In this document: piece by piece, positions 5,743 to 59,765 of the stretch
Layout of the letters: each line of letters starts with the position of its first letter
How positions within the stretch are numbered: position 1 is the stretch's first letter
Assembly (NCBI RefSeq): GCF_000621165.1
Contig: NZ_KK211217.1
Span: 496,001 to 560,000 of the forward strand
Direction of reading: 5' to 3'
DNA length: 64,000 nt
Origin: Enterovibrio calviensis DSM 14347
GTDB taxonomy: Bacteria; Pseudomonadota; Gammaproteobacteria; Enterobacterales; Vibrionaceae
Made by a program: the position numbers and the translations under genes
The notes under the pieces: generated by a model
Told to the model about the DNA's origin: nothing
The model's database searches: none
Seen by the model: only the letters and a program-made list of their open reading frames with translations

Positions 5743-7188
5743 CTAGTTCAGCAACAATCCCTGCACCTGCGCTTTCGCCACATGGCGGTCTACCGTATCT
5801 GAGTTCATTGATTCACCAATATTCACTTCAAGTTTTGACCAAAAGCGCGCGGGGCGGTTAGAAGCGCCCATTATGATCAGCGCATCAACATAACTGACGT
5901 GGTTCGCGACAATCAGAGCGGCACCTTCTGTGGGAATGTGTTGGCGACCCTTTACGGATACGCGGTACATGCAATGGCTCAACAAGTAGCTGATAAAACG
6001 TTGCGTAAATTCGGGTACTTGGCGGTAAACAATCAAGGCGACGATAAAGTTGCCCACTGCCATGAAGGCAAACAACTCCACAATTGAAAAGCCCAATACG
6101 CTCAACACCAGAATAGAAACCACGGCAGAGGCCACCATAAACAGTGCATTCATGATGTTGTTTGCTGCGATAGATTGCGCGCATTCGCCTTCCGCAGAGC
6201 GTGATTGAATGAAAGCATACAAAGGCACAATAAACACACCGCCACTCACACCCACAAAGAACAGATCAATCATCACTCTGTGATGCATGGATTGCGCTAA
6301 GAACTCCTGAACATTGTAAAATTGAGCGGGAAACGATTCGATGCTCGGGACTGCCCACAACAAATCGCCTGTGAACAAGGTTAACCCTAAAATACCAAAG
6401 GGAAGCACACCCAGCTCGACTTGGTTGAACGACAACTTTTCACACAACCATGAACCAGATGCAACACCTATTGAGAACAGCGCCAGTAGCAATGAGACCA
6501 CGGTGCTGTCTGCATGCAGATGTTCACGCGCAAAATTCGGGAACTGCGTTAAGTAGGTTGCGCCTATAAACCAGAACCAACTGATGGCGAGAATAGCCAT
6601 CCAGATCCCACGCTGTTTGGTGGAAATCCTCAGTGTTTTCTTTAGCCCTGATATCGGATCGAAACTTACTGTTCTAGGCTGTTTACTTGCCATGGAAGGA
6701 ATACGCAGGCTGCTTATTAATCCCAAAACAGAAAGCGCAATGACAATGCAAGAGGCGAAGAATACACCGTTGGGAACGGCAAGCAGAAGACCCGCACTCA
6801 GTGTGCCGATAAGAATAGAAAGGAACGTGCCCATCTCGACCCACGCATTGCCTTTTACTAGCTCGTCCGGTTTCAACGCTTGAGGCAGCAGTGCGTATTT
6901 TACGGGGCCAAAGTACGCGGATTGTGTGCCAGTCATGAATAGTAGGGCCAGCATAAGCAAGACACTCTGTGTCATGATCGCCACTGCCGCACACATCATA
7001 ATAACCAACTCAACCATTTTCAAACGGCGTATGAGCGTGGCTTTGTCCATGCTGTCTGCCACGGCTCCTGCATGCGCAGAAAATAAAAAGAAAGGAAGAA
7101 TGAAAAGGCCAGCGGCTAAGTTAATGAAGAGGTCAACAGGCATTGGCAGTGCGTCGATCTGGCTGTAGGTCACCATCAACAACAGCAC
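5743..7188 (-). pseudogene. LplT/Aas-like MFS-acyltransferase, truncated at both ends
   Basis: A 481-aa open frame holding an MFS domain of the LplT type (about residues 1-400) joined to the start of a PlsC-type glycerolipid acyltransferase. ALIVANHVSYVDALIIM near residue 430 carries the catalytic H-x4-D. Intact relatives have a complete PlsC domain and often an acyl-ACP synthetase; here the chain stops about 50 residues after the motif. Upstream of the first Met (7188) the frame continues as AALNDNIYKN, matching the family's usual FNDN-x2-KN opening, but it meets a stop at 7214-7216 where unrelated plus-strand coding sequence begins. Both ends are therefore lost. In intact form it would flip and re-acylate lysophospholipids at the inner membrane. 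A terminator follows at 5686. Confidence 0.75.
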
Positions 7189-7204
7189 GTTTTTGTAGAT
7201 GTTG

Positions 7205-7639
7205 TCATTGAGTGCGGCCCAGTTTGGTTACAGCGGGGCAGTGTTGGGCGTGGGGACTTTGCTAGGTAGTGCCTTAAGTAAAATGTTGATCGCTCGCAAC
7301 GTGTCGCAACTTTATCTGCTTTGGGGATCGGTATTGCTTTTAACGGCAGGCGCATTTGGAGTGCATGCTTTGCTGGATTCCATTTGGTTTTTGGCACCCA
7401 TGACACTGGTTGTGATGGCTTTTGGCATCGCGATTCCAAACGTACTGAGTGTCGCTTTGATTGAGTATAAGCAACAGGCTGGCAGCGCGGGTGCTGTGTT
7501 TGGCTTGATGTTTACTTGATGATCGGCTGTGGTTTAGCGTTGGCAGGGGCAATCCAACACTTGGGCGCTGTGCTGATTGCATGCAGTATTATAGCGGTGT
7601 TCGTAACCTTGTCTTGTTGGAAAGGTGGCGAGCGCTGAT
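7205..7639 (+). pseudogene. Bcr/CflA-type MFS drug transporter, C-terminal fragment with frameshift
   Basis: The last third of a Bcr/CflA-family multidrug transporter. Frame 1 (to the stop at 7517) reads FGYSGAVLGVGTLLGSALSK...IPNVLSVALIEYKQQAGSAGAVFGLM, the recognisable later helices of this family. Just before that stop (about 7508-7516) the homology jumps frame and continues as YLMIGCGLALAGAIQHLGAV to a stop at 7637-7639. The N-terminal two thirds are absent and the 5' edge meets the head of the minus-strand LplT/Aas-like remnant at about 7205. This is a dead fragment marking a recombination junction. Confidence 0.75.
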
Positions 7640-7710
7640 GCTTTGAATCGAAAGGTCAAAGGCAGGCAATGTAGATATAGCCAATACATAGCGAGTGTAG
7701 GCCAAATTTG

Positions 7711-7734
7711 CCACCAAGCCAGAAGGCTTGGTGG
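7711..7734 (-). terminator. Hairpin downstream of the RTX gene
   Basis: A perfect 10-bp stem (CCACCAAGCC / GGCTTGGTGG) with a 4-nt loop, 32 bp past the RTX stop. The following minus-strand sequence CAAATTTGG has only a short T tract, so it may be a weak terminator or a transcript-stabilising hairpin. Confidence 0.5.
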
Positions 7735-7766
7735 GCGGTCTTCACGCAATGGGTAAAACGTTACCG

Positions 7767-10097
7767 TCAAACGAACGTGAAGTGGTCTTCTGTGATGTTT
7801 GCTGCGTCTGTGTTATTCAGTGTGATGGTAAACGGTCCTTCATCGAAAAAGGTGTTGCCTACAGTAGCTTCAATGACAGTATCGTCACCTTGTTGAGTGA
7901 TTTGCAGCTGGCTGTAACTTAACGTCGCATCATGTAAGTTGAACGCAATCGTGTCATTGTTCACTTCGAAGTCTGTAATGGTGTCGTGCCCGAAGTCATT
8001 GTTGAGTCGTTCAGTATAGGTCCCACTCCAATCATAGAATTGGAACAAGAAGGTGTCACTGCCTTCACCGCCAGTCAAAGTGTCATTGCCTCTTTGTCCT
8101 TGGAGCGTATCGTTTCCTTTACCGCCGTCTAGCGCAATTCCATCGCTTTTCAGACCTTCGATATGGTCGTTGAAATCTGTGCCTACAACGTCTGCACCTT
8201 TCAGAATGAATTCTACATTTTCTGCATTGAACTCAGATGCCTCGGTATTTTTCAGCGTGAAAGTATGTGCGTCATCGATGCTAAGTACGACATTGGAACC
8301 AGACTGAGTAAATTGCAGCGATGACAGGTCAAGATCTTCGGAACCGAAGACTCGATGCGAAATGACGAGCGCATCTTCGGCGGCATTGAAATCTCGGATC
8401 GTATGGTCGTAATCACCAAAAACGGCGTTATTGTTGACGACAAGCTGTTCGTGATAAACGCCTTCGGTATAGGCAAACCAGTCACCGATGTAGAAGGTAT
8501 CTGAACCTTGTCCACCAATTAACAGGTCGCTTCCTAACCCTGCGTAGAGTTGGTCGTCACCGTTACCACCATTCAATATGTCTTTGTTAAACTCATCGGC
8601 ATCATCCTGCCCTGCGATAAGAATGTCGTTTCCATCTTCCCCTTTCAGAACATCCCCGTGTTCTCCCCCGATAAGTATGTCATCTCCTTTTCCGCCGCTG
8701 AGCTTGTCATTTCCTTTTCGGCCAATCAGAGTGTCATCACCATCTCCTCCAACGAACACTTCGTGATCGATATCTCGAAAGTTTGCAGTGTGTATGCTGA
8801 AGGAAATGTCGTTGGCAATTGAAATATCAGCCGCATTGACATCCAGCAGGATCATCGTGCGGCCATTGATGGTGACTATCGTATTATCACCGTCTTGGGC
8901 GATATCAACATCATATGCTGAGGCATCAATGTTTAGACCCTCGCGCGCTACTTCAACTGCAACCCTCAGATTGTCGACGCCGACTTGATAGTCGGTGATA
9001 TACCGTGGGGTTGAGCCGTAAGTTTGAAAAACAAAAATGTCTTCGCCAGCACCGCCTGTGGAAACGCCCGTAACAATAACGGTGTCATCTCCGTCGCCGC
9101 CCCCTGTGTATTTAAATTCTCTGATCCCCCAGCTTTCGACGATCTGATCGTCGGCTGAGCTAAACCCGAGGCGTTTATCAATGGATTGAGGGGAGAAGCT
9201 AAACGAACTGCTGTGCTCGGTCGAGGCATCAAACGAAAAGTGCGCAGAGGTGAGAGAGGCAGCATCTGTGTTGTTCAGGGTGATGGTTGAATCTTCTGCG
9301 AGTGTTATGACCGTGGTACTGCCCACTTGCTCTATCGACAGTTCGCTGAAATTAGACGCAAGCCGCGTATCAATGCTTATCACATCGTTATCAAGTTCAA
9401 AATCAACTATGCGGTCGTGACCCGTCCTGACTGTTTCAACCAAATCTGAGTATCGGAATAGGACATTGGCGCCAAAGAAGAATGTATCACTTCCAGTGCC
9501 ACCAAAGAGCATTTGATCGTTGTGGTTACCCGCCAGCAAGTCATTGCCATCGCCGCCCAACAAGCGAGTACCTTGGCCAAGGCTACCAACAACCACTAAT
9601 GTGTCATCACCGACGCCACCTAACACGCTGTCATGGTTGCCGAGACTGATCAGCATGTCATTTCCCGAGCCGCCACGAAGCGTATCGTTTCCATACCCTT
9701 CGATCCAATCGTTGCCTTTTCCTCCAATCAGGGTGTATGTCGTATCGACATTGCCGATAAGGGTGTCATTACCCGCACCACCGACCGCTCTTTCACTGTT
9801 TGTAATGAAGTCGTTTCCGCTGCCGCCAAAGGCTTGGTCAACACCAGTGCCACCTTGGATCGTATCGTTCCCACTGCCACCAGATATAAAATCATTTCCG
9901 CCATTGCCATACAGCTTGTCGCTCCCGCCAAGTCCGTACAGAAAATCGTTGCCATCTGTACCTTCTAGCTTGTCGTAACCTTCTGTGCCAGTTTGGGTTA
10001 GTTCGGTTTCTGCTGAATAAAGAAATTGAGGTTGAGTCGGTAGTTCGGTGTCAATAGGGGATGAATCGTCCATAAAATGCGCATCATTTGATGACAT
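7767..10097 (-). CDS. RTX calcium-binding repeat protein without visible effector domain
   Basis: A 776-aa acidic protein built almost entirely of GGxGxDxLx nonapeptide blocks that fold into calcium-binding beta-rolls. At least four blocks are seen (about residues 42-215, 325-350, 445-550, 665-700). Each is followed by a linker of the form DHxIxDFxxxxD...LNNTDAAxxTxxHFxF, repeated at the ends of modules including the very C-terminus (ITLNNTDAANITEDHFTFV). No protease, lipase or pore-forming domain and no Sec signal are visible. Such proteins leave by type I secretion with a C-terminal signal; no T1SS genes are in this window. It may be an adhesive or surface protein, or a degenerate one. The start at 10097 has no strong RBS. 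The neighbours on both sides are gene remnants. Confidence 0.85.
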   Translation of the reverse strand: MSSNDAHFMDDSSPIDTELPTQPQFLYSAETELTQTGTEGYDKLEGTDGNDFLYGLGGSDKLYGNGGNDFISGGSGNDTIQGGTGVDQAFGGSGNDFITNSERAVGGAGNDTLIGNVDTTYTLIGGKGNDWIEGYGNDTLRGGSGNDMLISLGNHDSVLGGVGDDTLVVVGSLGQGTRLLGGDGNDLLAGNHNDQMLFGGTGSDTFFFGANVLFRYSDLVETVRTGHDRIVDFELDNDVISIDTRLASNFSELSIEQVGSTTVITLAEDSTITLNNTDAASLTSAHFSFDASTEHSSSFSFSPQSIDKRLGFSSADDQIVESWGIREFKYTGGGDGDDTVIVTGVSTGGAGEDIFVFQTYGSTPRYITDYQVGVDNLRVAVEVAREGLNIDASAYDVDIAQDGDNTIVTINGRTMILLDVNAADISIANDISFSIHTANFRDIDHEVFVGGDGDDTLIGRKGNDKLSGGKGDDILIGGEHGDVLKGEDGNDILIAGQDDADEFNKDILNGGNGDDQLYAGLGSDLLIGGQGSDTFYIGDWFAYTEGVYHEQLVVNNNAVFGDYDHTIRDFNAAEDALVISHRVFGSEDLDLSSLQFTQSGSNVVLSIDDAHTFTLKNTEASEFNAENVEFILKGADVVGTDFNDHIEGLKSDGIALDGGKGNDTLQGQRGNDTLTGGEGSDTFLFQFYDWSGTYTERLNNDFGHDTITDFEVNNDTIAFNLHDATLSYSQLQITQQGDDTVIEATVGNTFFDEGPFTITLNNTDAANITEDHFTFV

Positions 10098-10261
10098 GGC
10101 TTACTCCATAAATACTCTATTGTTGAGGGCAATACGAGCTGTTTTGCCTAGTGCTAGCAAACATTAAATCGTGCATAGGTAGGTAGCGTTGTCTCAAATT
10201 CTAGATATATAGAAGTTTGCTGAAACGCATGAGTAAATGACGAAAATGAGGACGAACAAAA

Positions 10262-10291
10262 ACGGAGTCTAGGTGAGTAGACTCCGTCTTT
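10262..10291. terminator. Bidirectional hairpin terminator
   Basis: ACGGAGTCT and AGACTCCGT form a 9-bp stem with T-rich tails on both strands (TCTTTT on plus). It separates the RTX gene promoter side from the 3' end of the chimeric dehydrogenase ORF, whose stop lies 56 bp away. The rest of the 10098-10346 gap shows no gene; the RTX promoter should lie there, but I see no clear -35/-10 pair. Confidence 0.7.
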
Positions 10292-10346
10292 TGAATGGCA
10301 GTGAGTTTGCGCTTAACACAACGCCTGCCAGTTTTGTTTGCTGTGC

Positions 10347-10721
10347 TTAATCGACGGTGACGACAACTTTTCCGATTGCCTTACCGCTGGCTAGGCGTTC
10401 ATGCGCTTGGCCTACTTGAGAGAGGTTAAACGTACCATCGTCTAGAAGTGGCTTCAGGCCGCCAGACTCAGCAATCGCAGTCATCTCTTTCAAAATGTTG
10501 CCATGCACTTCTCGACCTTGATTGTGTAGCATCGGCAATAGCATAAACACGACGTGCAACGACAAGCCTTTAAAGTGCATAGTGGTGAGGTCAATTTCTA
10601 GCAGAGAAACTGTCGAAGATACATGCATTAAATTACCCGTGATGCCATCGACATCAAACTGAAAGGCTTGCGCTTCATCGCTTTGCACGTGGTAATTCAC
10701 AGAGGCTTTGAGGGTCATCAT
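10347..10721 (-). pseudogene. Chimeric ORF: CmcJ-like N-terminus fused to alcohol dehydrogenase tail
   Basis: A 124-aa frame whose first 31 residues (to DVDGITGNL) equal the start of the CmcJ-like protein at 3138. The rest, from about residue 34 (STVSLLEIDLTTMHFKGLSLHVV...SGKAIGKVVVTVD), is the C-terminal quarter of a zinc-binding MDR alcohol dehydrogenase/quinone oxidoreductase. Both catalytic and most cofactor-binding parts of the dehydrogenase are missing, and the oxygenase part is too short to fold, so no enzyme activity is expected. The junction at about 10627 coincides with the edge of the 383-bp repeat. The fusion is in frame, with the donor's upstream sequence and start codon. This may be chance, since no function can be argued. 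Confidence 0.85.
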
Positions 10722-11009
10722 TCAGGTCTCCACACCATGGTTATGCGGTAAAAATCCGTCGCCGCAAGGTATGGAATAAAGCTTAATCATTTAGCTAAGG
10801 CTAATAAATGATCAGTAAAATGAATCAGAATTCGGATTTTAAATATAATCAAGTCAGATCAGAGTCAGCGTCGAGGCCGATGAGAGATCACTCGTGCTCT
10901 GTTGATGCGTGTTCTGCTGATGCCCAGTGCTTTGTAAGAACACGATGCGCAAGGCTGAGCATTTTGACGTGGCAGGCAGAAGAGGTAGATAGGAGCAGTA
11001 GACAGGAGA
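10627..11009. repeat. Copy B of the 383-bp direct repeat
   Basis: The partner of 3044-3426, same orientation, no indels, a few per cent diverged. It carries the duplicated start codon and 5' region and sits between a dehydrogenase remnant and the 3' end of the LysR gene, filling most of the 321-bp gap 10722-11042. A 65-69-codon plus-strand frame exists in both copies (3225 and 10808) but accumulates amino-acid changes freely and has no RBS. Confidence 0.9.
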
Positions 11010-11042
11010 AGCACTGACGAGAAATAGGCAGAAGAGCGCTAC

Positions 11043-11942
11043 TCATTGCTCCCAATGATCATTGATAAAACTGGCACCTTGAAGCGATTGAATCACGGTT
11101 TCCAACACAGGGCCTACGGCGTGGCGACGGGAAACCAAGCAGCCTACCGAGGTCATCCAACCGCTGTATTCATGGGCAACGGGTAGGGCGATCACGTCGC
11201 CTTTTTCTATGAAGGATTTCGCCGAAAGCTCGGGCACGTTCGCCCATCCCACGCCTTTACTGACTAGCTCAACCAAGGTTTGGTGGGTATTGGCGTACCA
11301 CATTTTTGAACTGATGCCGTAGCTGAACCAAAGCTCCTTGTGCTCTGCGCTGCGGTGCACGCATTGGCGATACCGCTTTAAATCTGCGTCATGAACAACA
11401 GGCAGTGTCGCCAATTCATGATGAGATGCTGCAATGGTCAAAAACCGCGCTTGTCCGAGCAAAAAGAAATCCATATCCACTTTCAATTCACCATCCGCGT
11501 AGATGATCCCCACATGAGCTTTGCCTTCTCGCACTAAGTCTTCCACATCAAACGTAGAGGCGGTGATGATATCGAAATGCGTGATAGGAAAGGCGTCTGA
11601 CAGCGGCGCAAGAATGGCTAAGAGATTCGCGTCGATCAGGCTTTCATCAACGGCAATCACTACCTCATGCTCGTGTTCTTGGGTTAGGGATTCGACTTTC
11701 TGATCGAAGTACTTTTGTTGATGAAGAATGGATTGGGCGATGGGTAATAGCGCCTTGCCATTATCGGTCAGCACGGGGGTGTTTTTCTCGCGATTAAACA
11801 GCTCCTGATCAATGGCGATTTCAAGGTTCGCGATGGCTTGGCTCACACCAGATTGGGCGCGTTTCAATTTGCGAGCGGCGGCAGAGAAGGAGCCGCTTTC
11901 GCAGACCGTCACGAATATCTTTAATTGTTCGAAGCTGTACAT
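11043..11942 (-). CDS. LysR-family transcriptional regulator
   Basis: A 299-aa LysR-type regulator of standard length. The N-terminal winged helix-turn-helix is clear (FVTVCESGSFSAAARKLKRAQSGVSQAIANLE, about residues 10-41), followed by the linker helix and a substrate-binding fold from about residue 90. It faces the PACE efflux gene across 174 bp, the classic layout in which a LysR protein controls the divergent gene; the Acinetobacter pair AceR-AceI is the known precedent. Regulation of the transporter in response to a cationic or amine ligand is inferred. The 3' end lies 34 bp from repeat copy B. Confidence 0.9.
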   Translation of the reverse strand: MYSFEQLKIFVTVCESGSFSAAARKLKRAQSGVSQAIANLEIAIDQELFNREKNTPVLTDNGKALLPIAQSILHQQKYFDQKVESLTQEHEHEVVIAVDESLIDANLLAILAPLSDAFPITHFDIITASTFDVEDLVREGKAHVGIIYADGELKVDMDFFLLGQARFLTIAASHHELATLPVVHDADLKRYRQCVHRSAEHKELWFSYGISSKMWYANTHQTLVELVSKGVGWANVPELSAKSFIEKGDVIALPVAHEYSGWMTSVGCLVSRRHAVGPVLETVIQSLQGASFINDHWEQ

Positions 11943-12116
11943 GATGACACCACGGAAGAAGGCTATGCATTTTAACTAGGTAATGCATTCAAACTAAGTT
12001 CTCAAGCTAAGTACTCAAGCTATCACTAATCGTGATGGCTGTTAACTTTGTTTATTGTTTTTTCCTGCCATAATCGCCACCTCGCAATCTTGGCTATCTT
12101 TCTTTTTGAGTTACCT

Positions 12117-12542
12117 ATGACCACCTTAGAACGCATTTTTCATTCTGTTTTATTCGAAGCACTCGCTATCACTTTCTCGGTGATTGGTTTGTCTATCTTT
12201 ACCGATCACGATCTGAAAGCACTATCAGGAACCATGATAGTTGTGGCGACCATCGCCATGATTTGGAATTATTTCTTCAACCTGACGTTCGATCACTTCG
12301 TGAAAGGCGAGAAAACGGAACGCTCATTTGGCACTCGGGTTTCCCATGTCTTGCTGTTTGAAGGCGGGTTGTTGTTTTTCACCATCCCTGTGATGGCGTA
12401 CTTGTTGAACGTGAACCTGTGGGATGCGTTCATCATGGACATTGTCGTGACCATCTTCATTACGATTTACGCGTTTTTGTTCAACCTGACTTATGACCAT
12501 GCTCGTGTGTTCATTCTTCAGCAACGTCAAGTGAGCGTGTAA
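12117..12542 (+). CDS. PACE-family multidrug/biocide efflux transporter
   Basis: A 141-aa inner-membrane protein with two tandem bacterial transmembrane pairs (four helices). Family landmarks: FHSVLFEALAITF with the membrane-embedded Glu (about residue 14), IWNYFFNLTFDH near 57-68, and the echoing FLFNLTYDHARVF in the second repeat near 119-131. PACE proteins export cationic biocides or short-chain diamines using the proton gradient. I chose the ATG at 12117 (MTTLERIFH) because it gives the usual N-terminus and length; an upstream in-frame start at 12048 would add 23 atypical residues. It diverges from the LysR gene. Confidence 0.88.
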   Translation: MTTLERIFHSVLFEALAITFSVIGLSIFTDHDLKALSGTMIVVATIAMIWNYFFNLTFDHFVKGEKTERSFGTRVSHVLLFEGGLLFFTIPVMAYLLNVNLWDAFIMDIVVTIFITIYAFLFNLTYDHARVFILQQRQVSV

Positions 12543-52375: not shown

Positions 52376-53450
<1,075 letters not shown>

Positions 53451-54467
53451 ATGCGAAAGTTGAGGGAGGCGGTATATACGTTTTTTGTTCGAACTGGCAT
53501 TGCCAGAGCCCTGTCATATTTCCATCGCGATAAGTTAGTCATCCTTTGTTTTCATTCGATGTCTTTGAAGGACGAGCATCAATTCTGGCCGGGTGTCTTC
53601 ATCTCAAAAGAAAAGCTCCATGAGTTGCTGAATTATCTTCAACGGTCGCACTTCAACGTGATTAGCCTAGACGACGCAGAACGCCATTTAAACGGGGAAG
53701 TTCAGTTCAAGTATCCCGTTGTGATTACGGTCGATGATGGTTGGCGATCCAGTATCACTGACCTTGTACCTAACTTTCAGGCGTATCAGTTTCCCTCAAC
53801 CGTTTATGTGACCACGTATTACTGCGATCACCAAATCCCTGTGGTGAATGTTTTGCTCCAATATTGGCTATGGCACAAGCCTAGTGATGCGTTTGACGTG
53901 GAGTATCAAGGCCAATGCTATTCGTTTGCTGGTAGCGTGCCTGAGATCGTGAAAGCGGTTGAAACGATCATGGTGTCTTTCGATGACGAGCAAAAAAACG
54001 ACTTTTTGACGGCGATAGCAGGCGCACTCGGTGTGAGTGACGATGCAATATCATCAAAACGCTTCCACAATGCGAACTACGAAGAATTGAAGTCGGCGAT
54101 GGCTTCACCACTCACCAACATTCAACTGCATACCCATACACATAAGTTGCCCACTGACAGTGACGCAATCCACCATGAAATTCAAACCAATCGACAGGTG
54201 TTAGCCACCCAGCTTTCTTCGGAAAAAGCGCTGACGCATTTCTGTTACCCCAGTGGGATTTGGTCGCCCGAGCACATTGCTGATTTGCAGGCGCTAGGGA
54301 TACGAACCGCGACCACCTTGGATGAAGGACTCAATGCGACGACTGAGCACCCGCTGAAGCTGAAACGCAATTTGGTGATGAACTCTCGCTCGTTGAATCA
54401 ATTTATTGTCACGATTTCAGGCGTGACAGACACCCTACGTTGGATGATGGGTAAAACACGGACTTAG
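53451..54467 (+). CDS. NodB-type polysaccharide deacetylase
   Basis: A 338-aa protein. The NodB-fold begins at about residue 28 (LVILCFHSM), with the catalytic and metal Asp pair in VVITVDDGWRSS near 89-100, the ILLQYW-containing middle, the metal His pair in LHTHTHKLPT near 225, and FCYPSGIWSPEHIADLQALGIRTATTLDEG near 263-292. It would remove acetyl or formyl groups from a sugar or related acyl amide. ATG 53451 is chosen because GAGGG lies before it; a TTG at 53439 is in frame. It begins a same-strand run with the FkbH, ACP, MaoC and SDR genes, 20 bp before FkbH. Confidence 0.85.
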   Translation: MRKLREAVYTFFVRTGIARALSYFHRDKLVILCFHSMSLKDEHQFWPGVFISKEKLHELLNYLQRSHFNVISLDDAERHLNGEVQFKYPVVITVDDGWRSSITDLVPNFQAYQFPSTVYVTTYYCDHQIPVVNVLLQYWLWHKPSDAFDVEYQGQCYSFAGSVPEIVKAVETIMVSFDDEQKNDFLTAIAGALGVSDDAISSKRFHNANYEELKSAMASPLTNIQLHTHTHKLPTDSDAIHHEIQTNRQVLATQLSSEKALTHFCYPSGIWSPEHIADLQALGIRTATTLDEGLNATTEHPLKLKRNLVMNSRSLNQFIVTISGVTDTLRWMMGKTRT

Positions 54468-54487
54468 GCGCGAGAGCATGCGCGGCA

Positions 54488-56299
54488 ATGAGGAAGGCAA
54501 TGACGGAATCAGCGAATTTTCGAATCACTTACCCGTTAGACGTGGCGCTGTTGCAGCGTCGCCAAAAAAAACTGCGCAGAACGTTAAAAACGTCTCTTAA
54601 CGCAACGCCTTTGCGTCTTGCCATTTTGGGAGGCTCAACAACGTCTGAAGTGGCGAATTACATTGAGCTGTTCTTGTTAAATGCGGGTGTGAATGTCGAG
54701 ATCTACCAGTCGGATTACAACCGTTTCTATCAAGAAGCGGTGTTTGAAAACGAGGCGTTGGATGCGTTTAACCCTCAAGTGATTTATCTCCATACCAGCA
54801 CGGTTAACCTCACGTCATGGCCGCAACCGACAGACAATCATGTGGAAGCCGCCGACAAAGTGGCAGAGACCTACAATGACTTCCATGCAATTTGGCAGGC
54901 GCTACACGGTAAGTATCAGGCCACCATTATTCAGAATAATTTTGAGTTACCGTTTTCTCGCCCGCTCGGCAATATCGATGCATCGGCGAATGGGGGGAAG
55001 ACGCGTTTCACCCACGCGATAAACGCGAAATTTGCAGAGTATGCGGCGCAAAACGCCAACTTCATTTTGCATGATCTGAACTATCTTTCGGCATGGTTTG
55101 GTTTAGAGCGCTGGTTTAACAAAACCCAGTGGTACGCCTACAAGTACGCGATGTGCAGCGATGCGTTTCCTGAGTTGGGGTACAGCATTGCCAATCAGGT
55201 GTTGGCCGTTTTGGGGTTAAGCAAAAAAGCGCTGGTGTGCGATTTGGATAACACCTTGTGGGGTGGCGTTATTGGTGATGACGGCGTCAGTGATATCCAA
55301 ATCGGTCAAGAGACGGCAGAAGCGCAGGCCTATACCGAGCTACAGCAATACCTCAAAGCCTTGCATCAACGAGGTGTGTTGCTAACGGTGTGCAGCAAGA
55401 ATGACGTAGAGAATGCAAAGCAAGGCTTTTCACACCCTGACTCGGTACTGAATCTGACGGACTTTAGTGAGTTCATTGCTAACTGGGTCAACAAAGATCA
55501 GAACATTGAGCAAATTGCTGACGCATTGAATATTGGCTTAGATTCCCTCGCTTTTCTTGATGACAATGCGAGCGAACGTGAGCTTGTTTCCAGCAACCTA
55601 CCGCAAGTCGCTGTTCCCAATATTGGTCAGGACATTACTCAATACATTACAGCGTTGGATAAAGCCGGGTTGTTTGAATTGGTGTCTCTGAGCGCTGAAG
55701 ATGCAGAACGAGCCAGCATGTATGCGCACAATCAAGAGCGTAAGCAATTGCAGCGCGAGTTTGAAAACTATGACGATTACCTGCGTTCGCTCGACATGCA
55801 GGCTGCGATCACTCCTTTTGATGAGGTGGCCTTACCGCGCATCACCCAGCTCACCAACAAAACCAATCAGTTTAACGTCACCACTCAACGCTATAGCGCC
55901 GCTGAAATGACGTCGTTTATGCACTCGCCCAAGCATGTCGCTTTGTATGGACGGCTGCGGGATAAGTTTGGCGATAACGGCATTGTGTCTGTGATTGTGG
56001 GTGAGGAACATGAAAACACCCTGATGATTGATTTGTGGTTGATGAGTTGTCGTGTGTTTAAGCGAAAAATGGAATGGGCGATGTTTGAAGAATTAGTTCG
56101 CCACGCAAAAGCTCGCCATATTCAAAAATTGGTGGGGCGATATGTGCCCAGCAAAAAGAACGCTTTGGTTAGCCATCACTATCAGTTATTGGGTTTTCAA
56201 TGTTTGTCAGAAGATGAAGACGGCGTCAGCCATTGGGAGTATGCCATTGATGAACATCAAGGTGTGGATGACCTGCCTTTAACGATTGTTTGCGAATGA
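54488..56299 (+). CDS. FkbH-like HAD-IIIC family protein
   Basis: A 603-aa protein of the FkbH class. The N-terminal part (LRLAILGGSTTSEVANYIELFLLNAGVNVEIYQSDYN, about residues 42-78) is SGNH-like; the central HAD domain has LVCDLDNTLWGGVIGDDGV near 248-266 and LTVCSKND near 298. A GNAT-like C-terminal part has the diagnostic NKTNQFNVTTQRYS near 457 and WLMSCRVFKRKMEWAMFE near 517. FkbH-type enzymes load a glyceryl unit from 1,3-bisphosphoglycerate onto an ACP; other members act in sugar amide and polyketide pathways. An ACP gene follows 120 bp later, supporting an ACP-loading role. An in-frame ATG at 54500 is an alternative start. Confidence 0.88.
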   Translation: MRKAMTESANFRITYPLDVALLQRRQKKLRRTLKTSLNATPLRLAILGGSTTSEVANYIELFLLNAGVNVEIYQSDYNRFYQEAVFENEALDAFNPQVIYLHTSTVNLTSWPQPTDNHVEAADKVAETYNDFHAIWQALHGKYQATIIQNNFELPFSRPLGNIDASANGGKTRFTHAINAKFAEYAAQNANFILHDLNYLSAWFGLERWFNKTQWYAYKYAMCSDAFPELGYSIANQVLAVLGLSKKALVCDLDNTLWGGVIGDDGVSDIQIGQETAEAQAYTELQQYLKALHQRGVLLTVCSKNDVENAKQGFSHPDSVLNLTDFSEFIANWVNKDQNIEQIADALNIGLDSLAFLDDNASERELVSSNLPQVAVPNIGQDITQYITALDKAGLFELVSLSAEDAERASMYAHNQERKQLQREFENYDDYLRSLDMQAAITPFDEVALPRITQLTNKTNQFNVTTQRYSAAEMTSFMHSPKHVALYGRLRDKFGDNGIVSVIVGEEHENTLMIDLWLMSCRVFKRKMEWAMFEELVRHAKARHIQKLVGRYVPSKKNALVSHHYQLLGFQCLSEDEDGVSHWEYAIDEHQGVDDLPLTIVCE

Positions 56300-56419
56300 T
56301 TGTGGGCGAATGATTAGGCGTAAATTACTGTGTCTCGCTCATGGTTGAGCACACCCGATTTAATTCACTACACGGTGTGAATCGAAGCAGTATCACCCCA
56401 CCACGAAAAAGGAGTTTTT

Positions 56420-56668
56420 ATGGATATTCTAAACGCGATTTCTCAGATTATTTCTGATGTGTTGGATGAAGACGATTTGGTCGTGTCGCGAGAGACGACC
56501 GCCGATGATGCGGAAGATTGGGATTCCTTGGCACAGATACAAATCATCGATGCCATTGAAAAAGAGCTGACGATCAAGTTTAGCCTGCTGGAAATTGAGC
56601 AACTTAATCAGGCGGGTAACGTGGGTGACACGGTCGATTTGATCACTCGAAAATTGAAAGCGGCATGA
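56420..56668 (+). CDS. Acyl carrier protein
   Basis: An 82-aa acidic ACP. The phosphopantetheine site is the Ser in DWDSLAQIQIIDAIEKEL (Ser near residue 36). Helix I is MDILNAISQIISDVLD. DWDSL rather than DSLDS marks it as a specialised, FkbH-associated carrier and not the fatty-acid AcpP. AAAAAGGAG precedes the ATG. The 120-bp gap from the FkbH gene contains a small hairpin (TTCACTACACGGTGTGAA) but no gene. A dedicated carrier in a cluster with MaoC and SDR enzymes implies acyl-ACP intermediates. Confidence 0.9.
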   Translation: MDILNAISQIISDVLDEDDLVVSRETTADDAEDWDSLAQIQIIDAIEKELTIKFSLLEIEQLNQAGNVGDTVDLITRKLKAA

Positions 56669-56682
56669 TCGGAATAAAATGA

Positions 56683-57105
56683 ATGAAGCACTACCGCATT
56701 GATGACATTGACGTTGGGCTGAAGCACCAATTTTCAGCTGATATCACCAAAGAAAAACTAGACGCGTTTACCCTGGTGAGTGGTGATATTAACCCGCTGC
56801 ATACGGATAAAGAGCATGCCAAAAGGCGAGGGCATCCTGACGTTGTGGTTTACGGCATGATGACAGCCTCTTTGTATTCCACGCTGGTGGGCGTGTATTT
56901 ACCTGGCGAGAATGCGTTGCTGCAGGATATTCAAACGCGCTTCAACCGGCCGGTGTTTGTTGGGGATGTGTTGACCGTTGAAGGAACCGTCGTGGAAGTT
57001 CACACCACGTTAAAGCGAATAGAAATTAAAGCGACGATCCGAAATCAACATGGACAAGTGGTCTCGAAAGCACGGATCCATTCTGGGATTGATGAGGGTG
57101 AATAG
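56683..57105 (+). CDS. MaoC-like (R)-specific enoyl hydratase
   Basis: A 140-aa hot-dog-fold protein. FTLVSGDINPLHTDKEHAKRRGHPDVVVYGMMTASLYSTL (about residues 29-68) contains the hydratase-2 motif with catalytic Asp and His (GDINPLH). TRFNRPVFVGDVLTVEGTV near 85 is also typical. It interconverts enoyl and (R)-3-hydroxyacyl thioesters, here presumably on the cluster's ACP. It lies 14 bp after the ACP gene and 3 bp before the SDR gene. Confidence 0.88.
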   Translation: MKHYRIDDIDVGLKHQFSADITKEKLDAFTLVSGDINPLHTDKEHAKRRGHPDVVVYGMMTASLYSTLVGVYLPGENALLQDIQTRFNRPVFVGDVLTVEGTVVEVHTTLKRIEIKATIRNQHGQVVSKARIHSGIDEGE

Positions 57106-57108
57106 GCC

Positions 57109-57840
57109 ATGAGTAAAACCAGCTTAATTGTGGGCGCGAGTTCGGACATTGGGAAAGCGGTGATGGAGAAGCTGGACGGTGCAGGCAATCGTATTATCGC
57201 CCATGGTTGCAACAATCTGGCAGCGCTAGAAAGCATGCAAGCCTGTTTGCAAAGCGATCTGCATCCTCTTCGCGCAGATTTAAGCGACCCAGACAGTTGT
57301 GACGTATTCATTCAAAAAGCGGTGGCCTTGTGTGCGAACCCTGATCATCTTGTTTTTGCGCAAGCGCCGAGACTGACACTGACGCGTTTGAAAAAGCTAT
57401 CGCGCCAGCAGGTGATGGAGCAGCTAGAGGTTCAGATGGTCAGCAGCATGACGATAGCAAAAGCGTTTCTTCCTGCAATGGTCAAACGGGGAAATGGACG
57501 TGTCGTATTTGTGCTGAGTAGTGTCACCTTAGGCATGCCGCCAGCCGCCATGGCAGATTACAACATCGCCAAGTACGCTCAGTTGGGATTGATGCGGTCG
57601 TTGGCCGCGGAATTTGGCACAAAGGGCGTGCGTGTTAATGCAGTGTCGCCCTCAATGGTCGATACGCCGTTCTTGCAAGATATTCCCGACAACATGGTGA
57701 TTCAAAACGCCGCGGCTCACCCGATGAGGCGCAATGCAACATCCGAAGAAGTGGCTTCCGCGGTGGTATTCATGCTCTCTGACGGGGCGGAGTACATTAA
57801 TGGCGTTAATCTTTCCGTCACGGGAGGAGAATGTGTATGA
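57109..57840 (+). CDS. SDR-family 3-oxoacyl-ACP-reductase-like protein
   Basis: A 243-aa classical short-chain dehydrogenase. The cofactor loop is LIVGASSDIGKAVMEKL (about residues 5-21), where the usual T-G-x3-G-x-G is slightly changed; the catalytic Ser lies in VFVLSSVTLG near 135 and the Tyr-Lys pair in ADYNIAKYAQLGLMRSLAAEFG near 150; VRVNAVSPSMVDTPFL follows. The Asn-Ser-Tyr-Lys set looks usable, though the nucleotide loop deviates. With MaoC it would form the reducing half of an acyl-ACP cycle. It overlaps the next gene in ATGA. Confidence 0.88.
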   Translation: MSKTSLIVGASSDIGKAVMEKLDGAGNRIIAHGCNNLAALESMQACLQSDLHPLRADLSDPDSCDVFIQKAVALCANPDHLVFAQAPRLTLTRLKKLSRQQVMEQLEVQMVSSMTIAKAFLPAMVKRGNGRVVFVLSSVTLGMPPAAMADYNIAKYAQLGLMRSLAAEFGTKGVRVNAVSPSMVDTPFLQDIPDNMVIQNAAAHPMRRNATSEEVASAVVFMLSDGAEYINGVNLSVTGGECV

Positions 57841-58820
57841 GCTTGCAAACACTGCTCGGTGAGTTACGAGAGCTGATTGAAAACCGATTGGATGGCAAGG
57901 GCGTGAACCTGCCTGAAGTGCGCCAACAATACGTCTCTTTTGTGCAGGATCAGATGCCAGGTCGTGCTTACTCTCACTTTCCCGATGATATGGATCGTTG
58001 GTTTGAACAATTGTTTGACACGCTTAGCGCTGAGATGATGGCTGATGTTCATCAACTGGCGCTGGTTGATCTCATGCTGAGTAGTTTGCGCTCGCTTGAC
58101 TCACAGCGTCCTGAAGACAACAGCGTTTGTGTGAATACGCTACCGATGGTTGTTATTGAGTCAGTCAAAGAATGGTTTACCTATTTGGCAGACAGTATGG
58201 CAGCAGGGGATTATGAGCCTGATGTGACAAGCGATTTATTCAGAAAAGACTTGGCCATTAGTGCATTGAATATGTGGCCGAGTGGCTCAATTTGCCATTA
58301 TGAGCCTAGGGCATTGCCACGACGGTTTCTCACCGCAAATGGTATTACACAGTTCGTTTCTGCAGCGGATATGTTGCTGAGAAAAATCAAAGACAGACAG
58401 CAGATGTACGAGCTTCATATGGAAGATCGAAGAACGAACCCTCACTTTCTTGAAGCGGGTTGGCGAGAGTTTTATCTGGAAATTGCACAGCGCATGAAAT
58501 CGGAACCGCAGATTTCAGGCATATTTGCGCAAAGCTGGTTTTGGGATGCTGAGGTGATACAAGCATCGTCAAAAATGGCCTATTTACGCAATCTCCCAGA
58601 ATCCGGAGGTGCGTCGTTTTATCTGCTTGAGGCGTGTGATGATGCAGAACATGTCGCATTACAGAACAAAAAACGTCGACGGTTATTCGAAGAAGGGAAA
58701 TACACCCCAAAAAGCTACCTGATGATTTGGCCGCGTGAAGCCTTGCTGCGCTGGGCTAAAGGTCAGCAACCTATTCAAACAACGCTTACTGATTGTCATC
58801 ACTCCGTTCAGTCTAAGTAG
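57837..58820 (+). CDS. Unrecognised protein ending the FkbH/ACP cluster
   Basis: A 327-aa soluble protein without signal or membrane helices. I recognise no family. It is rich in Trp, Tyr, Asp and Glu. Notable segments are SICHYEPRALPRRFLTANGITQFVSAADMLLRKI (about residues 142-175), GWREFYLEIAQRMKSEPQISGIFAQSWFWDAEVI near 207-240 and LLEACDDAEHVALQNKKRRRLFEEGKYTPKSYLMIWPREAL near 260-300. The start at 57837 is supported by AGGAG 7 bases upstream and forms ATGA with the SDR stop, so it is translationally coupled to the cluster. Being at the end of an acyl-ACP operon, it could be the transferase or other final enzyme; this is inference from position only. Confidence 0.75.
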   Translation: MSLQTLLGELRELIENRLDGKGVNLPEVRQQYVSFVQDQMPGRAYSHFPDDMDRWFEQLFDTLSAEMMADVHQLALVDLMLSSLRSLDSQRPEDNSVCVNTLPMVVIESVKEWFTYLADSMAAGDYEPDVTSDLFRKDLAISALNMWPSGSICHYEPRALPRRFLTANGITQFVSAADMLLRKIKDRQQMYELHMEDRRTNPHFLEAGWREFYLEIAQRMKSEPQISGIFAQSWFWDAEVIQASSKMAYLRNLPESGGASFYLLEACDDAEHVALQNKKRRRLFEEGKYTPKSYLMIWPREALLRWAKGQQPIQTTLTDCHHSVQSK

Positions 58821-58994
58821 GGCAAAATTGGCCAATTTTGCCGTGGGCGTTTTTCTAATTGCATCAAATTAAAGCAGTATTTGATTCGATGAATGAGACA
58901 ATTTTTGATCGTGTCATGCTAGAAAGTGAGTGAAGACTGCCACTCTAATTCTTATTTATGCTATAAAAGTAAGGATCTTTTGAGGGTATTCACA

Positions 58995-59765
58995 ATGTTA
59001 GAGCAAGCAGTATCAAATTTAATCAGTGATGACGCGACGTTGAGCCGTAAACAAGTGGCTATGCGTGATCGCGAGAATGAGTTACTGCAAATTGCATGTG
59101 GCATTGTAGAAAGGGAAGGGTTTGCACAACTTAATATGGATAAAGTTGCGGCCGCCAGTTCGTATTCCAAAGGAACGATATATAACCACTTCAACAGCAA
59201 AGAAGACTTGTTCGCTGCACTCGCGATACAAGCCTTGAGTAAAAAAATCCCGCTATTTCAACGTGCTCTCGACTTTGAAGGCTCAAGCCGCGAAAAGTTG
59301 ATTGCTATGCATGCGGGTATGCATCTTTTCTCGAAACTCTCTCCCATTCTAGCTATGTGTGCTTTGGTTAGCCGCACGCCTGCCGTCACTGAAAAGAGTG
59401 CCCCAGAGCGCTTAGAAAAACTCAACACCTTAGAAGATTTAGTGGTGTCGTTTGGCGATAAATTCATCGAGCTTGGTCAAAGCTCTGGTGACATCATCCT
59501 CGCACCGGGCATTACGAGCGACAGTATTGTGTTTGCAAATTGGGCTATGGCATTTGGCACCAGTTCATTGGTCAACAATGCAACCCAAAGCAGTTGTGTT
59601 TCCCGTCAAAGTGATACCAACATTGTGCTACAGAATATTAACTTCCTTCTAGACGGTATGCGTTGGATGCCTTTGTCTTGCGATTTTGATTACCAGAAAA
59701 CGTGGGATCGTGCTGAAAAAGACCTATTTGATAAAGAAGTTGCCCTCCTAAATAGCCAATCATAA
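58995..59765 (+). CDS. TetR-family transcriptional regulator
   Basis: A 256-aa TetR-type repressor. The HTH is ELLQIACGIVEREGFAQLNMDKVAAASSYSKGTIYNHFNSKEDLFAAL (about residues 30-77), followed by a long helical ligand domain. The ATG at 58995 has GAGGG 8 bases upstream; a GTG at 58926 is in frame but adds unlikely residues. It precedes, by 264 bp, the MMPL/LolA/outer-membrane operon. Four copies of a 13-bp palindrome in that gap are its probable operators. The ligand is unknown, but lipid or acyl-CoA sensing would suit the controlled genes. Confidence 0.88.
   Translation: MLEQAVSNLISDDATLSRKQVAMRDRENELLQIACGIVEREGFAQLNMDKVAAASSYSKGTIYNHFNSKEDLFAALAIQALSKKIPLFQRALDFEGSSREKLIAMHAGMHLFSKLSPILAMCALVSRTPAVTEKSAPERLEKLNTLEDLVVSFGDKFIELGQSSGDIILAPGITSDSIVFANWAMAFGTSSLVNNATQSSCVSRQSDTNIVLQNINFLLDGMRWMPLSCDFDYQKTWDRAEKDLFDKEVALLNSQS

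Follow-up and report, generated by a model that had tools for sequence, protein, structure and literature searches.

A rare, putatively mobile FkbH–ACP gene cassette in Enterovibrio calviensis and its candidate role in three-carbon acyl modification

A compact block of six genes containing an FkbH-type enzyme and an acyl carrier protein (ACP) lies in a 64,000-nucleotide stretch of the Enterovibrio calviensis DSM 14347 genome (contig NZ_KK211217.1, positions 496,001 to 560,000; hereafter the window). Read entirely from the forward strand, the block opens with a polysaccharide-deacetylase-like gene (deac, 53451..54467; 338 aa from an ATG, with a TTG 12 bases upstream as a possible alternative start). 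It continues with fkbH (54488..56299; 603 aa, comprising an FkbH_N domain, a HAD-type FkbH domain, and a C-terminal part), acp (56420..56668; 82 aa), maoC (56683..57105; 140 aa, a MaoC-type hydratase/dehydratase), and sdr (57109..57840; 243 aa, a short-chain dehydrogenase/reductase). It closes with a last gene (57837..58820; 327 aa) that has no accepted family and overlaps sdr by an ATGA. An initial annotation, made from the sequence alone, had placed six open reading frames (ORFs) here, and all of them are present. Its description of gaps of 3–20 bp or overlaps for most of the genes agrees with the measured intergenic distances of 20, 120, 14, 3, and −4 bases, the one 120-base gap preceding acp. 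The G+C content of the block falls inside the range of the surrounding DNA.

The family calls made at that stage for FkbH, ACP, hydratase, reductase, and deacetylase all scored above Pfam or NCBIfam cutoffs. FkbH matched the domain model TIGR01686 with 296.6 bits (NCBIfam cutoff 146.65) and Pfam FkbH_N with 38.3 bits (cutoff 27), while the ACP matched Pfam PP-binding with 23.5 bits (cutoff 20.8). The motifs expected for the five known families were kept in the copies compared except for the exact KTNQFN string in one FkbH, that of locus L006. Thus, among the block copies described below, FkbH displays DLDNTLWGG in 6/6 and KTNQFN in 5/6, and the ACP displays its D-S-[LI] serine (DSL in the window) in 6/6. 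On these features the FkbH–ACP pair falls within the FkbH systems that load glyceryl. Their chemistry is described in two reports: Tmn16, an FkbH homologue, transfers glyceryl from 1,3-bisphosphoglycerate onto ACPs in vitro (PMC3625739), and FkbH–ACP glyceryl loading is also described elsewhere (PMC7489565). A glyceryl-ACP is therefore a likely intermediate of the cassette.

The remaining recognizable enzymes have more general affiliations. MaoC matched Pfam MaoC_dehydratas with 69.5 bits (cutoff 27), carries DxNPLH in 5/5 copies, and has (R)-specific enoyl-CoA hydratases as its best PDB matches. The SDR matched Pfam adh_short_C2 with 139.7 bits (1.5e-40, cutoff 27) and retains YxxxK and the glycine motif in 5/5 copies; its nearest NCBIfam models are of the YmfI and FabG type, all under their cutoffs. 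The deacetylase matched Pfam Polysacc_deac_1 with 44.4 bits (2e-11, cutoff 23.1) and shows TxDDG, HTxxH, and YPSG in 6/6 copies. Its nearest NCBIfam and PDB entries are PgaB, though it scores only 58.9 bits against the cutoff of 321.9 for the PgaB equivalog TIGR03938. The highest 19-residue hydropathy of the deacetylase is 1.14; since a simple hydropathy scan revealed no strongly hydrophobic segment, the enzyme may be cytoplasmic.

Scanning genome contigs with the last protein retrieved five relatives. All six genes were observed, in unchanged order, in Enterovibrio norvegicus FF-33 (L002), Enterovibrio sp. ZSDZ42 (L003), Vibrio sp. Of7-15 (L005), and Gammaproteobacteria bacterium 45_16_T64 (L006), whereas at the locus of Vibrio sp. 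AND4 (L004) maoC and sdr are missing and the order runs deacetylase, FkbH, ACP, last protein. Counting the window, the full order is found in 5/6 loci and, among these five, in three genomic settings, with protein identities of the block relatives to the window of 36–93%. As judged from ORF lists, L002 and L003 share the flanks of the window, while the flanks of L004, L005, and L006 differ from it and from each other. Finding this order in four further genomes shows that the six genes amount to more than a chance neighborhood; they almost certainly form one functional unit. This recurrence and the family matches support the earlier proposal of a dedicated FkbH–ACP acyl pathway with MaoC and SDR in one compact unit. 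In the AND4 draft genome no MaoC match was obtained at E 0.01, although 3/3 control genomes matched; as maoC and sdr both occur in L005 and L006, the simplest reading is that the AND4 line lost them. The four proteins kept in AND4 thus appear to be the core of the unit, with MaoC–SDR as a tailoring step.

The insertion site was traced within the genus by searching 18 genomes with the protein of tetR (58995..59765, forward strand; TetR_N 2.5e-11), the right-hand neighbor of the block in the window. Twelve genomes matched at E 1e-60, own included, and the site data cover these 12. The block is present in three, namely the window's own genome, G026 (L002), and G031 (L003). It is absent from the other 9/12 sites, eight of which have cmoA directly beside tetR and one of which (L060) has three small ORFs between them. 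In the window, cmoA (52376..53131, reverse strand; CmoA equivalog above cutoff) is the left-hand neighbor. The presence of other ORFs between cmoA and tetR in L060 suggests that the site may accept insertions repeatedly.

Across wider and overlapping genome samples, the last-protein profile was rarely encountered: by convincing matches in 4/296 genomes of the family sample, in 6/398 of the phylum sample (the window's genome and five from a single genus), in 2/369 of the class sample, in 4/289 of the class of G594, and in 1/295 of the order sample (the window's own). A marginal match in G265 (E 9.7e-4, 56 residues, internal stops) was dropped from the family count. The different settings together with the empty cmoA–tetR sites indicate horizontal movement, and the block is, as far as sequence comparison can tell, a rare, self-contained, mobile cassette. 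The initial annotation had also considered that related genomes might hold these genes inside a known polyketide or O-antigen cluster; no polyketide synthase (PKS) or O-antigen genes were recognized in the L004–L006 flanks, for which ORF lists were read and no profile scan was made.

Known FkbH systems provide partial parallels. The methoxymalonyl-ACP pathway, as outlined in PMC7489565, uses two dehydrogenases and an O-methyltransferase alongside FkbH and ACP; the block has one SDR and no methyltransferase in Pfam or NCBIfam. The tetronate glycerate-utilization operon includes a FabH-like protein with FkbH and ACP (PMC4979870 and PMC7489565), and no ketosynthase was found among the six proteins or scanned neighbors. 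Like both loading systems, the block pairs FkbH with a dedicated free-standing ACP. Unlike them, it has no FabH-like ketosynthase, O-methyltransferase, or PKS and instead contains MaoC, an SDR, a deacetylase, and an unclassified protein. Pfam and NCBIfam scans likewise upheld the earlier remark that neither a ketosynthase nor an adenylation enzyme lies inside the block. A literature search for the combination of HAD-IIIC, polysaccharide deacetylase, ACP, and MaoC found nothing, which is weak evidence of absence.

FkbH relatives are not confined to the block. At E 1e-60 or better they were found in 6/274 genomes of the class sample, own included, and at E 1e-20 in 103 of 72,556 plasmid records. 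Eight other FkbH loci were opened, comprising the five non-own class matches and three of the 103 plasmid records. The greedy ORF lists used may miss small genes, and L040–L042 were searched only in such lists. By hidden Markov model (HMM), an ACP adjoins FkbH in 7/8 opened loci, the exception being L039, a locus that appears PKS-like by eye. MaoC and SDR adjoin FkbH in 4/8, as separate proteins in L024 and fused to one another in L040, L041, and L042; since L040 and L041 represent one type of cluster, these are better counted as three cases than four. These four loci resemble the block in uniting FkbH, ACP, MaoC, and SDR and differ from it in their other partner genes.

One such module is that of Subdoligranulum variabile (L024), in which the order fkbH-acp-maoC-sdr is accompanied by identities of 46% for FkbH, 51% for MaoC, and 41% for SDR. 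As in the window, sdr there overlaps the next gene by ATGA. That gene encodes a 335-aa protein that does not match the profile of the last protein (probability 0.1); it had seemed GNAT-like by eye, a label unsupported in Pfam, NCBIfam, and PDB, and is kept as unclassified. The L024 block (7932-12407) lies in a plasmid record with only two annotated features. Several of the other loci have glycan-like surroundings. L042 also has glycosyltransferase-like proteins (BFO_1060), a PseF-like cytidylyltransferase, and a PgaB-like deacetylase, all under curated cutoffs, and in L040 a WbbJ-like hexapeptide protein, likewise under its curated cutoff, separates acp from the MaoC–SDR fusion. Flippase-like and glycosyltransferase-like ORFs were seen by eye near L040 and L041, and an MBOAT neighbor is annotated in L026, with MBOAT-like neighbors seen by eye in L025 and L038. 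Looser FkbH–ACP–MaoC/SDR combinations thus do occur in glycan-like loci, although we know of no product for them. Taken together, these neighborhoods suggest that FkbH–ACP is often the supplier of an acyltransferase that modifies a surface polymer. As a separate observation, fkbH in L025 (7620-9682; Sinorhizobium meliloti 1021 pSymB) is read in two overlapping frames; among the listed S. meliloti records it is split in two in H12, H13, and H15 and undivided in the others.

The last protein was described initially as unrecognized, and it remained so: its best Pfam E value was 0.041, under cutoff, its best PHROGs E value was only 0.072, and no match was obtained in NCBIfam at E 0.1, in PDB at E 10, or on plasmid records at E 0.01. 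No Pfam, NCBIfam, or PDB match to a known acyltransferase family was accepted, and in the libraries searched the family appears to be without a name. It is nevertheless present in 6/6 loci of the block set, with identities to the window copy of 71% in AND4, 40% in L005, and 37% in L006. The structure prediction and homologue search suggested for this protein returned relatives but assigned neither a fold nor a family. Two AlphaFold models (six sequences each) had mean pLDDT (predicted local distance difference test) values of 66.9 and 70.3, and in both of these low-confidence models the N-terminal part is helical and the C-terminal part alpha/beta. A GNAT fold was considered for the C-terminal half; the element order fits uncleanly, and the fold is not claimed. 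Across 12 aligned sequences, 22 columns are invariant, among them H72, D133, K137, D138, R162, E192, H194, D237, R280, and R300.

The last gene differs from its neighbors in its pattern of divergence. L002 and L003 (10001-10933) are 97% identical in this gene, yet 89–90% in fkbH and the deacetylase, and the window copy is nearly as near to that of AND4 (L004 10001-10972) as to that of L002 (75%). The gene seems to have its own history, possibly through recombination that may also have changed the acceptor.

Distant relatives of the last protein were found in five genomes of one alphaproteobacterial genus and in G862, at 24–26% identity, and in G1239, at 33% identity over 180 residues. Near the five alphaproteobacterial relatives are ORFs that appear to encode glycyl-tRNA synthetase (5/5) and an IspE-like protein (3/5). 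In G862 (L023 6192-8557) the relative adjoins a 391-aa protein for which neither Pfam (E 0.1) nor NCBIfam (E 0.001) gave a match. The relative in G1239 (L031, 6785-7711) resides in an exosortase-A exopolysaccharide locus, in which a TIGR03013 glycosyltransferase and a TIGR03098 ligase score above cutoff and a TIGR03099-like decarboxylase just under it. The same locus contains an ACP and two polysaccharide-deacetylase-like proteins, under equivalog cutoffs, one of which matches the HMM of the cassette's deacetylase at 3e-7. The L031 ACP was seen by NCBIfam alone, a library that in the other six loci covered one L023 protein. Association of the last-protein family with a deacetylase and an ACP was hence seen once beyond the six-locus set. 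L031 is like the block in placing a last-protein relative near deacetylase-like proteins and an ACP and unlike it in having a TIGR03098 acyl ligase and no FkbH found.

Gene context provides the main argument for the function of the last protein, since the role of acyltransferase is the one left open by the other five genes. The initial suggestion that the last gene is an acyltransferase fits this context and finds no backing in family matches or in the low-confidence models; on balance, the case for an ACP-dependent acyltransferase slightly outweighs the case against.

Considered as a whole, the block is tentatively best explained as a horizontally moved, self-contained acyl-modification cassette, a reading to which we give somewhat under half of our confidence. 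In keeping with established family chemistry, FkbH would load glyceryl from D-1,3-bisphosphoglycerate onto the cassette's own ACP. MaoC enzymes eliminate a beta-hydroxyl, which in glyceryl-ACP is the C3 hydroxyl. We propose that loss of this hydroxyl as water would yield 2-hydroxyacryloyl-S-ACP, which would tautomerize to pyruvoyl-S-ACP and could then be reduced by the SDR to lactyl-S-ACP. Such a glyceryl-to-lactyl route on the ACP would explain the absence of a ketosynthase and an adenylation enzyme. The deacetylase, perhaps in the cytoplasm, would remove N-acetyl from a sugar or a lipid-linked sugar, and the amine so exposed, probably part of a glycan or glycolipid, would receive the three-carbon hydroxyacyl group of the ACP through the last protein. 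In AND4, whose locus contains neither maoC nor sdr, the group transferred would be glyceryl itself. Formation of lactyl-ACP by the cassette is possible, at a little less than an even chance, and a glycan-type acceptor is evenly balanced against other acceptors. The most specific version, in which lactyl-S-ACP arises without a ketosynthase or adenylation enzyme and a new N-acyltransferase family re-acylates the amine freed by the cassette deacetylase, is speculative and on the unlikely side. Under it, AND4, without maoC–sdr, would add glyceroyl where the full cassette would add lactoyl.

Two further systems can be compared with this scheme. The bryostatin loading module, in which FkbH operates with a ketoreductase (KR) and a dehydratase (DH), would be a precedent for the glyceryl-to-lactyl chemistry, the difference being that the block consists of free-standing enzymes and has no PKS. 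In Nod factor acylation, NodB is the deacetylase, NodA the acyltransferase, and NodF the ACP. The block is similar in combining a deacetylase with NodB-type motifs, an ACP, and a putative acyltransferase. It is dissimilar in that the NodB model falls far under cutoff, NodA gives no match, and the acyl group would have three carbons where Nod's is a fatty acid.

The tailoring step admits a competing interpretation, in which glyceryl or an oxidized form of it is transferred, the SDR is a dehydrogenase acting on glyceryl-ACP as in methoxymalonyl-ACP pathways, and MaoC is engaged elsewhere, the remainder of the scheme being unchanged. In such systems FkbH–ACP makes glyceryl-ACP, and dehydrogenases are proposed to oxidize it (PMC7489565), and the AND4 block, without MaoC or SDR at the locus, implies that a glyceryl-type group may suffice. 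Glyceric acid derivatives are also known as surface decorations: di-O-methyl-glyceric acid is found on Campylobacter flagellar pseudaminic acid (PMC3068675), and cj1302, an FkbH-domain gene, is named among Campylobacter flagellar glycan gene differences (PMC7099621), with no link shown between gene and decoration. The nearest models of the SDR are nonetheless of the reductase type, albeit under cutoff, and the recurrent pairing or fusion with MaoC is better suited to dehydration followed by reduction, and we regard transfer of glyceryl or its oxidized form as rather unlikely.

Several observations weigh against the lactyl-transfer scheme, and some of them favor other explanations. No literature passage was found that shows the lactyl precedent of the bryostatin loading module. 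The conserved middle of the last protein is largely modeled at pLDDT <50, and the low-confidence models give no assigned fold. Neither the last-protein HMM nor the deacetylase HMM matched in the eight other FkbH loci, and in the seven loci of distant relatives HMM searches detected FkbH in 0/7, ACP in 0/7, and the deacetylase in 1/7 (L031). No glycan genes were recognized flanking the block in its own settings. This last point, along with the location of distant last-protein relatives outside recognized glycan loci in 6/7 cases, would suit a small diffusible or secreted metabolite, in whose synthesis the last protein would use an amino acid, amine, or sugar as acyl acceptor and the product would be unmasked or trimmed by the deacetylase. 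FkbH is well known from secondary metabolism (PMC4979870 and PMC7489565), and the PKS-like L039 contains one of its relatives. Set against a metabolite are the absence of an exporter and a regulator inside the block and the resemblance of the deacetylase to polysaccharide deacetylases, and we regard this explanation as rather unlikely too.

The MaoC–SDR pair also proved less telling than its recurrence beside FkbH might imply. The MaoC–SDR fusion of L042 matched 1443 plasmid records, and two of the 20 listed were opened (H26 and H39). The H26 locus with MaoC and SDR is catabolic-looking, in an acyl-CoA context, and neither locus has an annotated FkbH. The pair alone therefore does not imply lactyl chemistry, and its use as a marker of a lactyl pathway was rejected. 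One could accordingly suppose that MaoC and SDR belong to the ordinary metabolism of acyl-CoA or acyl-ACP, that FkbH–ACP acts separately, and that the genes merely travel together. MaoC–SDR neighbors are common on plasmids, one of the two opened being the catabolic locus, and the nearest solved relatives of the cassette MaoC are the (R)-specific enoyl-CoA hydratases. However, maoC and sdr stay with fkbH and acp in 4/5 block relatives, in Subdoligranulum, and in the three fusion loci, which makes mere co-travel highly improbable.

Polyketide pathways are the setting in which FkbH–ACP pairs are best known; in this cassette, such a pair appears to form the core of a small portable unit that has no polyketide synthase. 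If the lactyl-transfer scheme is true, a four-protein set would give a lactyl or glyceryl thioester straight from glycolysis, and the last protein would found a new acyltransferase family. The loci with and without maoC–sdr would then constitute a natural pair whose products differ by one oxygen, and the whole would represent a three-carbon, glycolysis-fed analogue of NodAB acylation.

The surroundings of the block show a few further features. The window flanks comprise CmoA and CmoB on the left, both tRNA-modification enzymes encoded on the strand opposite to the block, and the TetR regulator and an RND-type transporter on the right. A perfect 22-base palindrome (58821..58842) follows the last stop codon immediately and has a T run slightly beyond it. 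It is a possible terminator, although it is absent from the terminator-like sites predicted, the total of which does not exceed chance (7 found, shuffles mean 6.2). In L060 (9038-10708), one of the small ORFs between cmoA and tetR belongs to the SgcJ/EcaC family above cutoff. A second variable place lies nearby, with extra ORFs between cmoB and its retropepsin-like neighbor in L057 (~7180-9672) and L058 (~7235-9152).

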